DNA from: Endozoicomonas sp. OPT23 | GTDB lineage: Bacteria; Pseudomonadota; Gammaproteobacteria; Pseudomonadales; Endozoicomonadaceae | Length of the DNA: 64,000 bases | NCBI RefSeq assembly: GCF_009653635.1 | Contig: NZ_PPFD01000001.1 | Coordinates: forward strand, 373,410-437,409 | Reading direction: 5' to 3' | In this document: positions 36,456-43,523 of the stretch, piece by piece | Layout of the letters: every line of letters starts with the position of its first letter | Numbering within the stretch: the first letter of the stretch is position 1 | The notes under the pieces: model-generated | The model's input: the letters and a program-made list of their open reading frames with translations, nothing else | What the model was told of the DNA's origin: nothing | The model's database searches: none | Translations under genes and position numbers: made by a program

Positions 36456-36503
36456 CTAGCCTGTAATCAAGTCTACGAATAAACGTTACAGGGAAGGAAC
36501 GTT

Positions 36504-38972
36504 ATGAAGTATTTACGCGCTCTTTTAATCACTCTATTAACTGCGTCAGGCATGGTGCTTGCCGAGCCTGTATCGAATGAAGCAGACGATAAAGTAAAGA
36601 TACCTCAATCGAAATACGTCAGGTCTATCTATTCCGGTGGTGATCCAAGGGATTACTCGGAAGATATAAAACAAAACCATAAACAATATACCGATTGGCG
36701 TGGTATGGATTACCAGTTTCATGACCTTTCCGAGTCAGGATCTCCTGTCATGAAGGCGTTGAACGGCAAACAAAAATACTGGGCCAAAATCGTTATTCTT
36801 CAGCAGGCCATGAACGATTCTAATATCCCTGAAGGTAGCTGGGTTGCCTGGGTTGATGACGATATTGTTATCAATGATGTTAATCATAGCCCTGCAATGA
36901 TAGACCGTATTATTCAGAAACATGGAGAAGGAAAAAGCGTCATAGTTGCAAAAGAAGACAGTGACTGGGCTTATCTGAATACCGGGATCATGCTGATTAA
37001 AAAAGATCAGGGTGGGCGAGATGTATTAGAAAATCTTATGAAAAAGTCAGATCAATCTAAATTTGGGAAGCTTGATCAGACTAAAAGTTTTCATGAACAG
37101 GGCGCTTTGAAAGAACTTTATTTAGGCTCTGACAAGGATAGTGCCGGAGAAAATCTGAAACGACATGTCGCAGTTGTCCCACAGCGAGATGAAGAACTGA
37201 ACTTTAATAACTTCAGAAGGTTCTCACATACCGATGAAAACCGTTTGATAAAAAATCCAGAAACTCAAGAGTTTGAGCCGATGGAACTGGTTTATGACGA
37301 CAGTCAAAGTGCCAAGGCTCAGGACACGGATGCATTTATTCATCACACAGGAATGAAGCAAAGCCTACGTTCTGATTCCATTAAAAAAACCATTAATGAT
37401 GTAAATAAAACACCTTTGAATTTTTTTCCGGAAGAGTCAGATGAGAAATTCAAAGCTGATCAGGTAGAGCGTCGAAATAGCATTCGAGAAGAGAAAATCA
37501 AAGAGCGAGATGAGAAGAGAAGAGGTACTCCAATTTCTCCTCCTTCAGAAGAAGAGCTGACAGCTTATCAGAGAGAACATCGAGATAATACTCGAAAGGA
37601 GAGACTTAAAGAACGGGATGAAAACATCAGAAAAAGAGACGAGAAGAGAAGAGGTATTCCAGTTTCTCCTCCTTCAGAAGAAAAGTTGAAAGCTGATCAG
37701 AGAAAGCACCGAGATAACATCCGAAAAGAAAGAATTAAAGAACGAGACGAGAAAATAAGGAAGCAAGCTGAAGAAAGAGCGAAGCTGGATGAAGCAAAGA
37801 AAAAGGCTGAACCGGAAGTTATTGAAGAGCCTGTTGTGTCTGCTACGGACACAGTAAAGCCTGCAGAAGAAGCAGTTGAACCTTATAACCTTTATGACTC
37901 ATTGAAAGCTCAGCTGCTTTCTGAAGTCAGCGAGACTGTGGAACAAGGCATTTTGGGTGTGCAATCACTGAACAGTGCTGCATCCATGATGATGCTGACA
38001 ACAATGACTGGCTTCAGCAGTGCAATGAGTGGCTTCAGAACAGGGCGCTTATTTTCTTACGGAATGACCAGTATCGATGAAGTTGTGCCAGAGGGTGCTG
38101 TGGCCAGTATTCACCCACCTGCACAGGGTCGCACTATTAGTCGTGAAGTAGGCAGCTGGCACAATTTTGTGCAGCTTAATATGCTTCAGGGTGATCGAAA
38201 GGCTGTGGATGGCTTACCGGGTGGCAGTGTAAAAGGCCACGGTTTGACGGCAGGTGTTTTTTACCAACTGGATGAAGATCTGATTACAGGAATGATGCTG
38301 TCCATTGGTAAAACTCAACACAGCCTGAGTCAGGCTAATGGCTCTGGCAGTATTGAAAGCATTGGCATAGGGCCATTTATTTCCTACACAAAGAATGACT
38401 GGCACATAGATGGTGCACTGACTTATTCCAGCGACAGTTATGCCATGAAACACAGTGACGCTCTCGGAAATCAGTTCAAGTCGGAGTTTTCCGGCAATAC
38501 GCTGACTGGTTATCTCGGGGTAGGTTATGACATTCATCTTGAATCGTTATCACCATCCCTGACGCTGACACCCATGATTGAGGTGATCCACAGTCGCTCA
38601 AGTCATGATAGTTATCAGGAAAAGACTTCTCAGAGCCAAGGCATGAAAATAGGAAGCTCATCCACTCAGGTCACAAGCACTCGCTTTGGGCTGGAATTGG
38701 GCTACCTCATGGATCTGGAAAACCCGATGGAGCTGAAAGTGCGTGCCGGTATGCAGCATCAGACTATTTCGGGACAGAGCACCAGCTATGAGTTGCCATT
38801 TGGTATGCAGGGGCAACTGAGTGTTCCCGGTAGCAGCGAGAAAGCTCTGTTTACCGGGTTGGCTCTGCATAAAAGAGTAGGAAGTGGTCATATGGCTCTG
38901 AGTTACTCGGGTACCCATTCTTCTGCCAGCAGTAGTCACGGCTTACAGCTGGAGTATGAAAGAAGCTTCTAA
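36504..38972 (+). CDS. autotransporter with GT34-like glycosyltransferase passenger
   Basis: An 822-residue predicted type V secreted protein. A signal peptide (1-20) precedes a passenger resembling GT34 galactosyl/mannosyltransferases: YWAKIVILQQAM (92-103), WVAWVDDDIVI with the DxD motif Asp118-Asp120, YLNTGIMLIKK (157-167), FHEQGAL (196-202) and AFIHHTG (277-283). Residues about 313-435 are highly charged helical repeats of 43 residues. A linker helix (about 465-515) and a C-terminal beta-barrel (about 548-822, ending YERSF) follow. In eukaryotes and bacteria GT34 enzymes act inside cells, so surface display is odd. Whether it is active and what donor it could use outside are unknown. GGAAGG precedes the ATG. 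Confidence 0.75.
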   Translation: MKYLRALLITLLTASGMVLAEPVSNEADDKVKIPQSKYVRSIYSGGDPRDYSEDIKQNHKQYTDWRGMDYQFHDLSESGSPVMKALNGKQKYWAKIVILQQAMNDSNIPEGSWVAWVDDDIVINDVNHSPAMIDRIIQKHGEGKSVIVAKEDSDWAYLNTGIMLIKKDQGGRDVLENLMKKSDQSKFGKLDQTKSFHEQGALKELYLGSDKDSAGENLKRHVAVVPQRDEELNFNNFRRFSHTDENRLIKNPETQEFEPMELVYDDSQSAKAQDTDAFIHHTGMKQSLRSDSIKKTINDVNKTPLNFFPEESDEKFKADQVERRNSIREEKIKERDEKRRGTPISPPSEEELTAYQREHRDNTRKERLKERDENIRKRDEKRRGIPVSPPSEEKLKADQRKHRDNIRKERIKERDEKIRKQAEERAKLDEAKKKAEPEVIEEPVVSATDTVKPAEEAVEPYNLYDSLKAQLLSEVSETVEQGILGVQSLNSAASMMMLTTMTGFSSAMSGFRTGRLFSYGMTSIDEVVPEGAVASIHPPAQGRTISREVGSWHNFVQLNMLQGDRKAVDGLPGGSVKGHGLTAGVFYQLDEDLITGMMLSIGKTQHSLSQANGSGSIESIGIGPFISYTKNDWHIDGALTYSSDSYAMKHSDALGNQFKSEFSGNTLTGYLGVGYDIHLESLSPSLTLTPMIEVIHSRSSHDSYQEKTSQSQGMKIGSSSTQVTSTRFGLELGYLMDLENPMELKVRAGMQHQTISGQSTSYELPFGMQGQLSVPGSSEKALFTGLALHKRVGSGHMALSYSGTHSSASSSHGLQLEYERSF
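37434..37770 (+). repeat. tandem repeat coding for 43-residue charged units
   Basis: Two units of 129 bp (from 37512 and 37641) are nearly identical at their starts (GAGAAGAGAAGAGGTA then TCTCCTCCTTCAGAAGAA), with partial units on both sides. The translation alternates KERDEKIRK-type helix with a PxSPPSEE turn. The period is a multiple of three, so copy number could change without a frameshift. Confidence 0.85.
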
Positions 38973-39073
38973 CCGAAGCTTCTTCTTTACTTACTTTTCC
39001 AGCTAACAGTCAGTCTAAGCTGAACTACCATTAAAGGTAATCCGGTTACCTTGAAATGGACTTGAGGCGAAGA

Positions 39074-39826
39074 ATGGACTTTCAACTTAGCAGACAATCA
39101 CTCGTTAAAAATATCTGTAGAAACACTTTTACCGGTTTTTTTGCATCTCTGGTTTTCTCATTGCCCGCTCAGGCAGATATGACGCTCAGCCGAATGATTG
39201 TCGATTTTCAGTCGGAGACCCTGCATCATCAGGATGTGACAGTTTTTAACGGGGATCAGGGCAACCTGTATGTCACTGTTAATGTCTTTGAAATATTGAA
39301 CCCCGGAACGGCTCAGGAAAAAAGAGTGCCAGTTCAGGACATGAAAAATATCCCTCTGGTTGCTACGCCAAAAAAACTGATTGTTCCAGGCAACAGTCAG
39401 AAAAATGTCAGGCTGGTTTCCCTTGAAGAAAGTGTTTCTAAAGACAGAATTTTCAGGGTTAACTTTTCACCGGCTTTAGGCAAACTAAAAGCTAGAACGT
39501 CCGGTATCAGAATTCTGGCCGCTTATGACAACCTGGTGATTATCAGACCGGAGAAACCTGTTATCGACATCACTACTGAGCGTAAGTCTGGCCGTATTGT
39601 GTTCCAGAACAAGGGCAATAGTAATGCCATTCTTCAGAATGGTTACCAGTGTCATCCGGAAAAGAAGAAGCAATGCGAGAAGCTACCGAATCGCAGGCTT
39701 TATGCGGGCAATACCTGGGAGCTGAAGACACCTTTCAGCGGTCCGGTTTACTATGAAGTGGATGATGGTAGCGGTGTGAAGAATCGGACATTTGGTGCTG
39801 CAGATAAAAAACTGACTTCCAGATAA
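39074..39826 (+). CDS. CS1-type fimbrial periplasmic chaperone
   Basis: A 250-residue exported protein related to CfaA/CooB chaperones of alternative chaperone-usher pili. After the signal peptide (SLPAQA) come a PapD-like immunoglobulin domain with LVATPKKLIVPGNSQKNVRLVSL and RIFRVNFSPAL, and a second domain with two Cys (residues near 192-200). ATG 39074 was chosen because TGAGG lies 6 nt upstream; ATG 39056 has none. It is on the opposite strand from, and convergent with, the usher gene. Confidence 0.82.
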   Translation: MDFQLSRQSLVKNICRNTFTGFFASLVFSLPAQADMTLSRMIVDFQSETLHHQDVTVFNGDQGNLYVTVNVFEILNPGTAQEKRVPVQDMKNIPLVATPKKLIVPGNSQKNVRLVSLEESVSKDRIFRVNFSPALGKLKARTSGIRILAAYDNLVIIRPEKPVIDITTERKSGRIVFQNKGNSNAILQNGYQCHPEKKKQCEKLPNRRLYAGNTWELKTPFSGPVYYEVDDGSGVKNRTFGAADKKLTSR

Positions 39827-39849
39827 TATTCTTATGCCATCAAATTAAT

Positions 39850-39885
39850 GATCATAAGGTGCTGAGTAGTGAACACCTTATGATC
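39850..39885. terminator. hairpin between convergent chaperone and usher genes
   Basis: GATCATAAGGTG and CACCTTATGATC form a perfect 12-bp stem around 12 nt. It lies 23 bp after the chaperone stop codon and 7 bp after the usher stop codon, suiting termination from both sides, though U-runs are weak. Confidence 0.65.
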
Positions 39886-39892
39886 CATATCC

Positions 39893-42367
39893 TTACTTAC
39901 AGATTAACTCTCCAGTCAGTACCACGCCTCTACGAACCTTTAACTGCTCAGGTAGTTCAAATGAACAGCTCTTACCATTCTCAAGATTGGCGTTAAGTTT
40001 TCTGACTCCTGTGTTCACTCTTGCCTGAAAAACGCCATTCTCATCAGTATCAGCAACGCCTGTCACGCCTTCCAGTTCAGCTTTTCTAATGGGCTGACCA
40101 CCGCTGTCGACCAGCTGCCCGATAATGACCAGAACCTGCTCAATATCCCAGCTGAAACTCTGAACGTTGCCTGGATAAAGGGCAAACTCCTGCTCTCGCT
40201 CATCAAACTCATAGTAGGACTCTCCCCGGGATTTGATGGATACCCGATAACGTTCGAAAGAGGGCAGATTAATCAAGGTACTGCTGCCAACACTGCCATA
40301 CCCTCTGCGTTGGCCGTTGACCAGAATGTCGAACTCACCTTTTACCTGACCATTAAGTTTAACCAGCAGGCCACTCTCGGTGTTGCCCTCGCCACCAATA
40401 ACAATCTTCTTACCGTCGGTGATCAGGCTGGTATTTAAGCTGCCGGAATAACTGGTGACTTTGTCACCGTCTTTCTGGTCGAGGTGGTTAACTCGGGCCG
40501 TGGTGTTCAGGTATTGGCCGTTATAATGAATGCCTGCACCCAGTGTTGAGCGGTTATTCTGTTTTTCGGCAAAGCCTTCCAGTTCGATTTCCGCTTCAAA
40601 GGTATCCCGGTCATACCAGGTCGCGGCTGCCTGATAATGATCGTCCTTATCAGTGATAGTTGCGTCGTCAGTCTTGTCGCGATTATGTTCAGCCTGATAG
40701 GAGATGCGGTTGTACCAGCTTCTGGTCCACTGACGAAGTTCTACGCCAGCCAGAATACGGAAGTTATCCCGCTCCTGAGAAACATCTGTTTTGAACTGAA
40801 GCTCATAACCGGCTTCCCGCCAGAGAGGAAAACTGAGTGAAGCGCCGTCAATGACCCGGGTTCTGTCGTCGGACTCATCCTTAAAATAACTTCTGCGAAA
40901 GTCCAGGTTGCCCTTACCCAATGCAATGCCCAGTGACGCTGTGCCCTGATAAAAGCTGTTGCCCAGCAGGAGGTAATCATCATCAGCGGGGGGGTCCTTG
41001 ATTGCTGTACTCCAGAGTCTGCGGTAATTAAGGTTCAGATTGGCTCGGCCCATGGACAGAAAAGTCATCATGGAAAAACCGTACCTGTCCCGATCGGCGA
41101 CCATGACACTGGTACCCAGCTGGTAGAAATCACCCAGTTTCAGCCCTGAAAGCTCAAGCAGCGCTTCTTTGCCTGTTGCAGCACCGGCTATCGCCAAGCT
41201 GGCTGTTTCACCGGCTCGCCAGTTATAGCCTGAACGAACAAGTGATGTGTCCTGGGTTTCAGGGAAGGTTTTGTCCGCTTTGGTGTTTACTGGCTTACCC
41301 ATTTCCAGAAAGTACTGGGGCTCATCAGCGGGTGGCAGGAACGTGGTTTTTACAAAGAACCGTGTGTCTTCGTCTCGCAGAACATCTCCGTCATACTGCT
41401 TGATCGTGATTTCGTAGGCTCCGGAAGGAAAAGAAACAGTATTGATCAACTGGCTTCCTGCTTCCTGAAATTCAGAGTGGATCAACCTGCCATCACGAAA
41501 CACTTCAACCCGACCACGGTTGCTTCTGAATACTTCGAGCCTGGTGCTCTGGGTGACACCATTACTCGTCAGAGTTCGCAAAGACGAACCAAAGCGACCA
41601 CCAATCATGGTCTTGTCAGCCGTGAAGGTCAGGCCGAAACTCTGACTCTGAATCAGGCCTGCGCCGTATGAAAAGCCTTCCTTGTCATGATTGAAAGAGA
41701 GGCTTCTGACACTGGTATTGCGCTCTTTATCGTAATCCCAGAGGCTTTCCAGATTGTTTTCCTGAAATGAAAGCATTGAGCGTCCAAACAGAGTCCAGGT
41801 TTCATTGTTTTCGGTATTGTTGTCACTGCTACGAGAGCCGGTAAACAGAGCGTTTACTGTCTGAAGGAATGCTGTGTCTGAAGTTGATTCAGGCAGGTAG
41901 TGCGACGAAAGCTCTTCAGGTGGCAGCAGGAATTCAGGGTTAACGACCAGATCCACACGGAAGCGTGATTCATCAAAAATAAGCCCGGCGACATCCGGTA
42001 ACAGGCTGGGGCAGACAGCTCTGTTGTTACACAGGTAATCACTATGACGATCCTGTGAGCCGGTCAGCGCTTCTGTCACCAGTTTCAGATTATTAAGACC
42101 GGGCAACATTCGGGCTACCTGCTCGGGGTCCGGGAATTCCACGGTAGTCGGTGTATAAACCGCTTTAACAGCATTGAGATAACGACCGTTGTAATAGACA
42201 TCAACCACGGTCAACTGTGGTGAAGCAAGCAGTTCAAACCCCTCAGGAATACCGTCCTCTTCAAAAACAGTATCGGCACTGATGGCAGGAAGGCTGGTGC
42301 TGAGCAGTAAACAAAAGGCAGGTGTACTGAATATCTCACGCCTTAAGGTATTGAGTACCTTTTCCAT
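39893..42367 (-). CDS. CS1-type outer-membrane usher
   Basis: An 824-residue usher of the alternative (alpha, CFA/I-like) family that secretes and assembles pilins. It has a signal peptide (AFCLLLSTSLPAISA), an N-terminal region with VVDVYYNGRYL, a long beta-barrel (about 200-620) with an internal plug region near RVEVFRDGRLIHS and GAYEITIKQYDGD, and C-terminal domains (LVDSGGQPIRKAELEGVTG, VRRGVVLTGELIC). Two Cys near residues 113 and 119 are typical of the N-terminal region. It is encoded downstream of the minor subunit on the same strand. Confidence 0.85.
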   Translation of the reverse strand: MEKVLNTLRREIFSTPAFCLLLSTSLPAISADTVFEEDGIPEGFELLASPQLTVVDVYYNGRYLNAVKAVYTPTTVEFPDPEQVARMLPGLNNLKLVTEALTGSQDRHSDYLCNNRAVCPSLLPDVAGLIFDESRFRVDLVVNPEFLLPPEELSSHYLPESTSDTAFLQTVNALFTGSRSSDNNTENNETWTLFGRSMLSFQENNLESLWDYDKERNTSVRSLSFNHDKEGFSYGAGLIQSQSFGLTFTADKTMIGGRFGSSLRTLTSNGVTQSTRLEVFRSNRGRVEVFRDGRLIHSEFQEAGSQLINTVSFPSGAYEITIKQYDGDVLRDEDTRFFVKTTFLPPADEPQYFLEMGKPVNTKADKTFPETQDTSLVRSGYNWRAGETASLAIAGAATGKEALLELSGLKLGDFYQLGTSVMVADRDRYGFSMMTFLSMGRANLNLNYRRLWSTAIKDPPADDDYLLLGNSFYQGTASLGIALGKGNLDFRRSYFKDESDDRTRVIDGASLSFPLWREAGYELQFKTDVSQERDNFRILAGVELRQWTRSWYNRISYQAEHNRDKTDDATITDKDDHYQAAATWYDRDTFEAEIELEGFAEKQNNRSTLGAGIHYNGQYLNTTARVNHLDQKDGDKVTSYSGSLNTSLITDGKKIVIGGEGNTESGLLVKLNGQVKGEFDILVNGQRRGYGSVGSSTLINLPSFERYRVSIKSRGESYYEFDEREQEFALYPGNVQSFSWDIEQVLVIIGQLVDSGGQPIRKAELEGVTGVADTDENGVFQARVNTGVRKLNANLENGKSCSFELPEQLKVRRGVVLTGELICK

Positions 42368-42496
42368 GGCAGAATCCGGCTGGTTGTTATTCTGTTGATT
42401 GAGTGCAAGCCAACTTTTTCAGGTATTCAATAAACCTGAAAAAGTGGGGCGCAACCTCACTTTTCACTTAAGAGCAGTTATCGACTGAAAACGGCT

Positions 42497-43402
42497 TTAT
42501 TGCACCCCGACACTGATGGTCAGCTGACCCTGGTAAGAGCCAGCGTAAGCCTTTTCAATCTCTGAAGATGGGACAGAAACAATCAGGGATAGAGGGTTGG
42601 AGCCGCAATTTTTACTGCCCTTTAGCCCAGATACGGGCACTTGAGGAGTCAGTGCCTGAACGCCATGGGCACTGTTTCTAATTTCGAGGTTGTACTTTAT
42701 CCGGCTGGCTTGCTGCCCGCTTCGAATCATCTCAAACGAACCTGGATTTGAGTCAGGTGCAGAGGCTCGAAGAGTGAAGCTCCCGCCGCCATTTCGGTTA
42801 ACGCAGATATTGACTTCCTTTCTTGGGTTCCTGAAGTCTTCCAGGACAATCTCTTTTGGAAGGGTCAGTTTGATCACCTCGGGAATCTGAATAAGGATAT
42901 CTAAGGTCTGTTCTGTCATTTTTTGAAAGACCCCTGAGAAGGCTGAAATCCTTACTTTGGCCTGATAATCACCGGCAGGCAGGTCATCAAGGTTGCTGGC
43001 TTTGGCGATCAGTTGCAGATCAGGCACATTACAGAGAGTGTCGCTTTGAATTGATGCTGAGTTTCGGTTAGCTGTAATCTCTTCTCTTCCGGAAGACGTT
43101 ACCAGGATAAGGTTGATGGGGATTCTGTTGCCCTTGCTGATGGCCACAATCTCATTGCCGCCACCATTTAAATCCTGAAAGCGCAGTGAGTAGTTGATAT
43201 TACTGTTATCCAGGCTGTCGGGCTGGGCACTGCTCTCGGCCTGCAGGCAGAAAGTTCGGGAAGCCTGAGATGTTGTTTTTCCGCCAGACCAGTCAATTCG
43301 AATAGGATCAGAAAGGTGTTCAAAACGTGTTTTGGTTGGTGCTGCCTGGGCAGGGTGAATAAAGGAAAATAGAAGAACAAAAAACAAGAGTTGATTTAAC
43401 AT
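42497..43402 (-). CDS. CS1-type minor (tip) fimbrial subunit
   Basis: A 301-residue exported protein (signal peptide ending SFIHPAQA). It seems to be two pilin-like domains: an N-terminal domain (about 25-160, two Cys) and a C-terminal pilin domain beginning near IPEVIKLTLPKEIVLEDF and ending GQLTISVGVQ with the alternating hydrophobic pattern of a donor or acceptor strand. The architecture fits a CooD/CfaE-like tip adhesin. The start was set at the inner ATG (43402), since AGGGA lies 7 nt before it. Confidence 0.72.
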   Translation of the reverse strand: MLNQLLFFVLLFSFIHPAQAAPTKTRFEHLSDPIRIDWSGGKTTSQASRTFCLQAESSAQPDSLDNSNINYSLRFQDLNGGGNEIVAISKGNRIPINLILVTSSGREEITANRNSASIQSDTLCNVPDLQLIAKASNLDDLPAGDYQAKVRISAFSGVFQKMTEQTLDILIQIPEVIKLTLPKEIVLEDFRNPRKEVNICVNRNGGGSFTLRASAPDSNPGSFEMIRSGQQASRIKYNLEIRNSAHGVQALTPQVPVSGLKGSKNCGSNPLSLIVSVPSSEIEKAYAGSYQGQLTISVGVQ

Positions 43403-43523
43403 GAGCTTTCCCTGCATCAAAATTCAAAGGCTTCTTTTGAGTGTAGGTGCCTGAGGGAAAGTTGGAGTGAGGAAAAGCTGGGCTAGGAAAAGTTGAGGGT
43501 TGGAGAGTTAGGGCTAAAGAGAT

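Follow-up and report, generated by a model that had tools for sequence, protein, structure and literature searches.

How could a glycosyltransferase serve a bacterium outside its own cell? Such an enzyme would be odd in a displayed position, because its sugar donors are normally found only inside cells. The question is raised by one gene of Endozoicomonas sp. OPT23, which occupies positions 36504..38972 (+) of the 64,000-nucleotide stretch of DNA analysed here (contig NZ_PPFD01000001.1; hereafter the window). The initial annotation of this gene, made from the letters alone, proposed an autotransporter with a GT34-like glycosyltransferase as its passenger. Our Pfam and fold searches agree with each other and support that interpretation: as far as sequence can tell, an open reading frame (ORF) with the layout of a surface-exported protein and a GT34 passenger is confirmed as real. 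The available text of PMC6955870 gives a sponge as the source of OPT23, and the sponge Halichondria as that of Hp36, the strain that carries the second copy discussed below. The bacterium is marine and probably a sponge associate.

Architecture of the protein and the family of its passenger

The gene is a single ORF with an ATG start, and its product is a cysteine-free protein of 822 residues. A signal peptide is followed by a domain of the GT34 family (PF05637), a charged repeat linker and an EstA-type autotransporter barrel (PF03797). Residues 1-20 (36504..36563, +) are signal-like by eye, with a putative cleavage point after VLA and before EP, and the N-terminus of the Hp36 orthologue is hydrophobic in a hydropathy scan. 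The passenger, as defined by PF05637, profile matches and fold, occupies residues 21-305 (36564..37418, +). The linker that follows, rich in Lys, Glu and Arg, takes up residues 306-470 (37419..37913, +), and a repeat scan found in it a unit of 129 bp (43 residues) in 1.8 copies at 37507-37744. Residues 471-562 (37914..38189, +) are predicted to form a helix or plug ahead of the barrel (ratio of nonsynonymous to synonymous substitution rates, dN/dS, 0.053; a long helix in a low-confidence model). The beta-barrel occupies residues 563-822 (38190..38969, +), and its last residue is Phe. The signal peptide, the charged repeats and the C-terminal barrel had all been claimed by the initial annotation, and these claims stand.

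PF05637 (Glyco_transf_34) matched residues 50-228 with 37.5 bits, above its curated cut-off of 23 (E 2.8e-9 with the whole protein and 9.6e-11 with the passenger domain alone). The same family was found at E <= 1 in 14 of the 15 aligned members (profile A1), and in none of 14 control genomes, which speaks against a promiscuous model. A profile search of the PDB gave XXT5 (E 2e-5) and the PBCV-1 glycosyltransferase (E 8.8e-5). In Pfam, in this profile search and with Foldseek/VIA on an AlphaFold2 model alike, XXT1-type GT34 enzymes and the PBCV-1 glycosyltransferase took the first ranks. The model of residues 21-305, for which two relatives from phage contigs (L052 and L055) served as extra alignment rows, is of moderate confidence; its fold is GT-A, and GT34 structures are the closest to it. 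In structural alignments the passenger is 12-19% identical to XXT1/2/5 (6bsu, 9p3j) and to the PBCV-1 capsid glycosyltransferase (2p6w, 2p72, 2p73), with which it has the W-K, DxD and N-T-G motifs in common; the PBCV-1 enzyme is taken here as a member of GT34. GT34 is a family known chiefly from eukaryotes. According to the available part of PMC12892413, XXT1 alone among GT34 enzymes has had its structure solved, and the eukaryotic members are type II Golgi enzymes. We infer that the passenger is a GT34-type, metal-dependent GT-A glycosyltransferase, with an activity that is predicted.

Two other families were tried and set aside: Glyco_transf_8 was detected in only 1 of the 15 members and Nucleotid_trans in only 4, with weaker E-values, compared with 14 for GT34. 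Matches of the S100 type (best E 0.074) and to a mite allergen (best E 0.11) were regarded as chance.

The four motifs named by the initial annotation were found where it had placed them. DDD at residues 118-120 (36855..36863, +) is the putative DxD motif for metal and nucleotide sugar, and its first and third Asp occur in all 15 aligned members. LNTG at residues 158-161 (36975..36986, +) is common to XXT1, XXT2 and XXT5, and its N159 is likewise present in 15 of 15. HEQGAL at residues 197-202 (37092..37109, +) is the putative catalytic motif (E198 in 13/15, Q199 in 14/15), and H-E-Q occurs also in the two phage-contig relatives. HHTG at residues 280-283 (37341..37352, +) may contribute the His of a DxD/H site as its third metal ligand. 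Of the 13 members without a gap at this point, 10 have H281; L009 and L004 have retained just the His that comes first in the pair, and L003 has Pro. K95, D118, D120 and N159 are invariant in the 15 aligned members. The window copy has K95, D118-D120, N159, H197, E198, Q199, H280 and H281, and the motif residues are the same in the Hp36 copy. The metal site of GT34 is described as a DxD/H motif in the available part of PMC12892413. In the passenger such a site is present at the sequence level, formed by D118, D120 and a terminal His, with H280 or H281 as the ligand. Judging from the alignment, the individual residues may act as their counterparts in XXT1 do.

The barrel was recognized by PF03797 (Autotransporter), whose match at residues 563-760 scored 115.4 bits where 26 are required (E 4.9e-33), and by NCBIfam TIGR01414, with 56.9 bits against a cut-off of 16 (E 1.8e-15). 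The NCBIfam model of the esterase EstP also matched (E 1.2e-8), with a score well short of its equivalog cut-off. When the barrel was searched against PDB sequences, EstA alone (3kvn, E 6.5e-9) was matched at E <= 1. An AlphaFold2 model of helix and barrel, made from two sequences only (pLDDT, the predicted local distance difference test, 34.6), shows a helix and then about a dozen strands, at a confidence too low to bear on the fold. In sequence, the protein combines features of a type Va autotransporter: a Sec signal peptide, by inspection and by the hydropathy of the Hp36 copy, a C-terminal PF03797 barrel and a terminal aromatic residue.

The fusion, its history and its relatives

Among the genomes searched, the fusion of a GT34-like domain to a barrel was found only in OPT23 and, as one further case, in Hp36 (G024). 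In both genomes the gene is in the same syntenic place, between dnaB and a chaperone-usher pilus locus. A blastp search with the barrel over loci L001-L024 matched only these two genomes. Pfam found no barrel in the 965-residue protein of G020 described below, and the frames of L036 and L038 stop soon after the glycosyltransferase (GT) domain. In the remaining eight genomes of the genus, different frames occupy the 1.5-kb stretch next to dnaB (by eye).

The window copy was compared with the Hp36 copy by the Nei-Gojobori method, in which dS was 1.0-2.7, near or beyond saturation, so that the ratios are rough. The dN/dS value was 0.068 in the GT core (residues 21-208), 0.118 in residues 209-305, 0.17 in the linker (dN 0.45, the fastest evolving part) and 0.067 in the barrel; for scale, it was 0.034 in dnaB and 0.044 in the usher. 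The dN value was lower in the GT core than in the barrel. Rough as ratios near saturation are, they show that the gene is under strong purifying selection, and the value in the GT core disfavours a chance ORF. The GC content at third codon positions (GC3) was lowest in the linker (0.30), followed by the GT part (0.37), helix and barrel (0.49), and dnaB and the usher (0.52 each). This contrast suggests different histories for passenger and barrel, and the low GC3 of the Lys-rich linker may have other causes. In a tree of 19 GT domains the two autotransporter passengers are paired (88/77); because its deeper branches have little support and the long ones come together, the tree does not settle the origin of the passenger. 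The Hp36 copy has a single Cys, residue 289, at the end of an 80-column insertion absent from the window copy.

PF05637 was found in 12 of the 37 genomes of Endozoicomonadaceae and, in a sample of 369 genomes of the class, only in OPT23 and in none of the 368 others. A search of 192 relatives with the passenger sequence gave matches in 16, namely 15 of the family and one remote genome of the order; 35 of the 37 family genomes are among those listed, and the remaining two are not among the matches. Profile A1 matched 9 of 390 genomes of the order (eight of the family including OPT23, and G084) and 5 of 398 of the phylum (OPT23 and four remote ones); in both searches at most 6 candidates per genome were scored, and misses are possible. 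Against viral contigs it matched four loci, two of which (L052 and L055) we read as phage-like glycosyltransferases with 24-25% identity and W-H-E-Q and N-T-G motifs. The plasmid collection, searched with the whole protein, gave no match. Five remote loci (L093-L096 and L104) were translated and no barrel was seen by eye; L104 and L094 adjoin other glycosyltransferase-like genes, also by eye. At L096, in a 1.2-Mb genome of the same phylum (G865:C46), two relatives found by the passenger profile are neighbours and have a membrane-like N-terminus, so that export or membrane anchoring of remote relatives may not be confined to Endozoicomonadaceae.

Hp36 has 12 passenger matches in about 10 genes; two are pieces of the autotransporter and six lie on contig C111. 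This expansion suggests a trait of weight in the lineage. On contigs C111 and C65 (L014, L018-L024) GT34-like genes are neighbours, many with a hydrophobic N-terminus, and one frame of 832 residues holds two GT34-like domains. We scanned the hydropathy of 21 frames, including the Hp36 autotransporter and the remote L040. A strong hydrophobic stretch was found within the first 45 residues in 12 of them and further in for three (L006, L012 and L019, in the last of which a later Met could make it N-terminal). Six were below the threshold (L010, L008, L003, L014, L038 and L040), of which L003, L014 and L038 are signal-like by eye. In G020 a protein of 965 residues with a hydrophobic N-terminus (L086:422-3319, -, on C1) has PF01755 (GT25; 43.3 bits, where 24 are required) and, after it, a GT34-like domain that narrowly misses the Pfam cut-off (21.1 bits against 23); it is apparently exported, to judge by that N-terminus. 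In genus g5 (L006, L008, L009, L010, L012 and L013), GT34-like proteins of about 525 residues have an N-terminal extension of about 250 residues with MTEFIHTYIHPPG-type motifs in common. A strong hydrophobic segment lies near residue 132 in L006 and L012, and the extension of L006, the one scanned, had no Pfam family.

The barrel sequence matched 21 of the 37 family genomes, and we ran Pfam on 18 of the barrel relatives in two sets. All 10 in one set had no families except those of barrels. In the other eight, PF00226 (DnaJ) was over its cut-off in two (L051 in the OPT23 genome, and L079), below it in L059 (E 0.0031) and L058 (E 0.097), and absent from the other four. Both PF00226 and PF03797 were over their cut-offs in at least three frames, in OPT23 (C26) and G019 (C10 and C58), that is, in at least two of the 37 genomes. 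The OPT23 frame (L089:2040-5291, -) encodes an autotransporter of 1083 residues, whose passenger has two DnaJ (J) stretches with HPD motifs; the frames in G019 are similar to it. This is an unusual type of passenger.

Proposed mechanism and alternative explanations

On balance we lean towards an EstA-like, surface-tethered GT-A glycosyltransferase that acts where host nucleotide sugars are present. The protein would then be a classical type Va autotransporter of the EstA kind, with an alpha/beta enzyme in place of the beta-helix and a charged stalk leading to the barrel. It would be exported by Sec, the barrel would insert in the outer membrane, and the passenger would emerge and fold outside, where it may stay tethered or be shed later. 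If the passenger follows its family, transfer would be retaining. The host would supply the nucleotide donor, either within one of its cells or compartments or through leakage from cells that are damaged, and the acceptor may be host glycans or glycans on the bacterium itself.

Several points weigh against this reading. Neither the periplasm nor the space outside cells holds much nucleotide sugar, so the supply of donor must be assumed. The PF05637 match extends over residues 50-228 only, 101 of the 285 residues of the passenger model have a pLDDT below 50, and the model is poor in its C-terminal part, where the last His lies. The PF03797 match covers profile positions 10-207 of 255 and stops short. 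Motif residues are altered in relatives: L017 has Thr at E198, and L003 has His and Asp at E198 and Q199. Because of these losses, the set of relatives may include non-enzymes. As to life within a host, aggregates of Endozoicomonas in corals 'may be intracellular' according to the authors of PMC11809670, in the part available, and this hint concerns coral Endozoicomonas, not sponge isolates.

The strongest alternative is a protein that uses the GT34 fold for binding, that is, a displayed lectin or adhesin which has kept a pocket for sugar or nucleotide and attaches to host glycans without transferring sugar. We regard it as possible, though clearly less probable than an enzyme. Display outside the cell would be explained without any supply of donor, the changed residues of L003 and L017 would be in line with it, and the adjoining chaperone-usher pilus locus is an adhesion setting. 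On the other side, every motif residue checked is present in the window copy, dN is lower in its GT core than in its barrel, and the catalytic Glu-Gln would be of little use to a protein that is only a lectin.

It is improbable that the protein works during export, modifying the bacterium's own glycans or itself in the periplasm or at the outer membrane with a donor other than free cytoplasmic nucleotide sugar. The stand-alone signal-bearing relatives, which by default would go to the periplasm, would fit such a role, but autotransporter passengers are generally unfolded in the periplasm and we know of no periplasmic donor of the nucleotide-sugar kind. Moreover, a DxD/H metal site, as described for GT34 (PMC12892413, in the part available), suits a GT-A enzyme to nucleotide sugars. 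Slightly less probable still is a fossil, in which a glycosyltransferase gene was fused by accident and is now only a stalk or spacer: GC3 differs between GT part and barrel as after the fusion of parts with different histories, and only two of the family genomes searched have the fusion, but the dN/dS of the GT core and the identical motif residues in both copies argue against it. A cytoplasmic enzyme with a misleading barrel assignment or signal peptide, for which the neighbours of L104 and L094 might speak, is very unlikely in view of the PF03797, TIGR01414 and EstA matches, the terminal Phe, the signal-like N-terminus and the lack of cysteine.

Among known systems, Pseudomonas EstA, an autotransporter esterase, likewise has an enzyme passenger on a related barrel. 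Its passenger, a GDSL-type hydrolase, needs no co-substrate donor, whereas the OPT23 protein carries a GT-A glycosyltransferase at the end of a long charged stalk. To our knowledge, the known enzyme passengers of autotransporters are hydrolases without need of a soluble co-substrate, and we know of no GT34 member with an autotransporter barrel. Since a displayed glycosyltransferase would need a donor from its surroundings, one would expect either that nucleotide sugars are present at the habitat or that the fold now serves for binding. A glycosyltransferase and an autotransporter meet in one system also in the bacterial autotransporter heptosyltransferases TibC and AAH, but in those systems the modifying enzyme is distinct from the passenger and acts on it ahead of its passage through the inner membrane (PMC7142665, in the part available), and in OPT23 the enzyme itself is the passenger. 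Secreted glycosyltransferase effectors, such as the type III arginine GlcNAc-transferases, act where host nucleotide sugars are present (same part of PMC7142665); they differ from the OPT23 protein in GT family and delivery route. In the open-access literature we found no autotransporter with such a passenger, which is weak evidence with subscription journals and preprints outside its scope. The available parts of PMC12373483, PMC7142665 and PMC10619736 concern other things, and neither 'autotransporter' nor 'glycosyltransferase' occurs in the main text of PMC6955870. The autotransporter chassis and GT34 are each known, and their combination apparently has not been described.

If the surface-tethered enzyme is real, sugar transfer would be added to the chemistry of type V secretion; enzyme or lectin, either outcome would show the way in which Endozoicomonas, as symbionts, interact with their sponge and coral hosts. 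A J domain normally requires an ATP-driven Hsp70 partner, and the J-domain passengers among the barrel relatives are, like the GT passenger, modules that normally need intracellular partners. We put forward the link between the two as an idea and not as a result. Speculatively, Endozoicomonadaceae might place cofactor-dependent modules (nucleotide-sugar glycosyltransferases and J domains) outside the cell by means of autotransporters and signal-bearing relatives, to act in a host compartment that holds the cofactor. If this rather unlikely idea is true, surface display would bring enzymes to the host interior without injection.

The surrounding locus and putative expression signals

The chaperone-usher pilus locus adjoining the autotransporter gene lies at 39056-43420 of the window. 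It includes a pilus-chaperone-like gene (39056-39826, +; by eye, with no Pfam family matched), a CS1/Coo-type usher (39893-42367, -; PF15976, E 2.1e-16, and PF16967, E 4.1e-18) and a protein (42497-43420, -) whose CblD-like match is weak and below the cut-off.

The autotransporter gene is preceded by a ribosome-binding-like GGGAAGGAA at 36491..36499 (+). By pattern scan only, a terminator-like hairpin at 38960..38984 (+) overlaps its stop codon; four such hairpins were found in the region against 2.2 expected. At L111-L114 (G020-G023) the DnaB frames are 943-996 residues long, and their match to the window DnaB is split near residue 236 in an intein-like manner.
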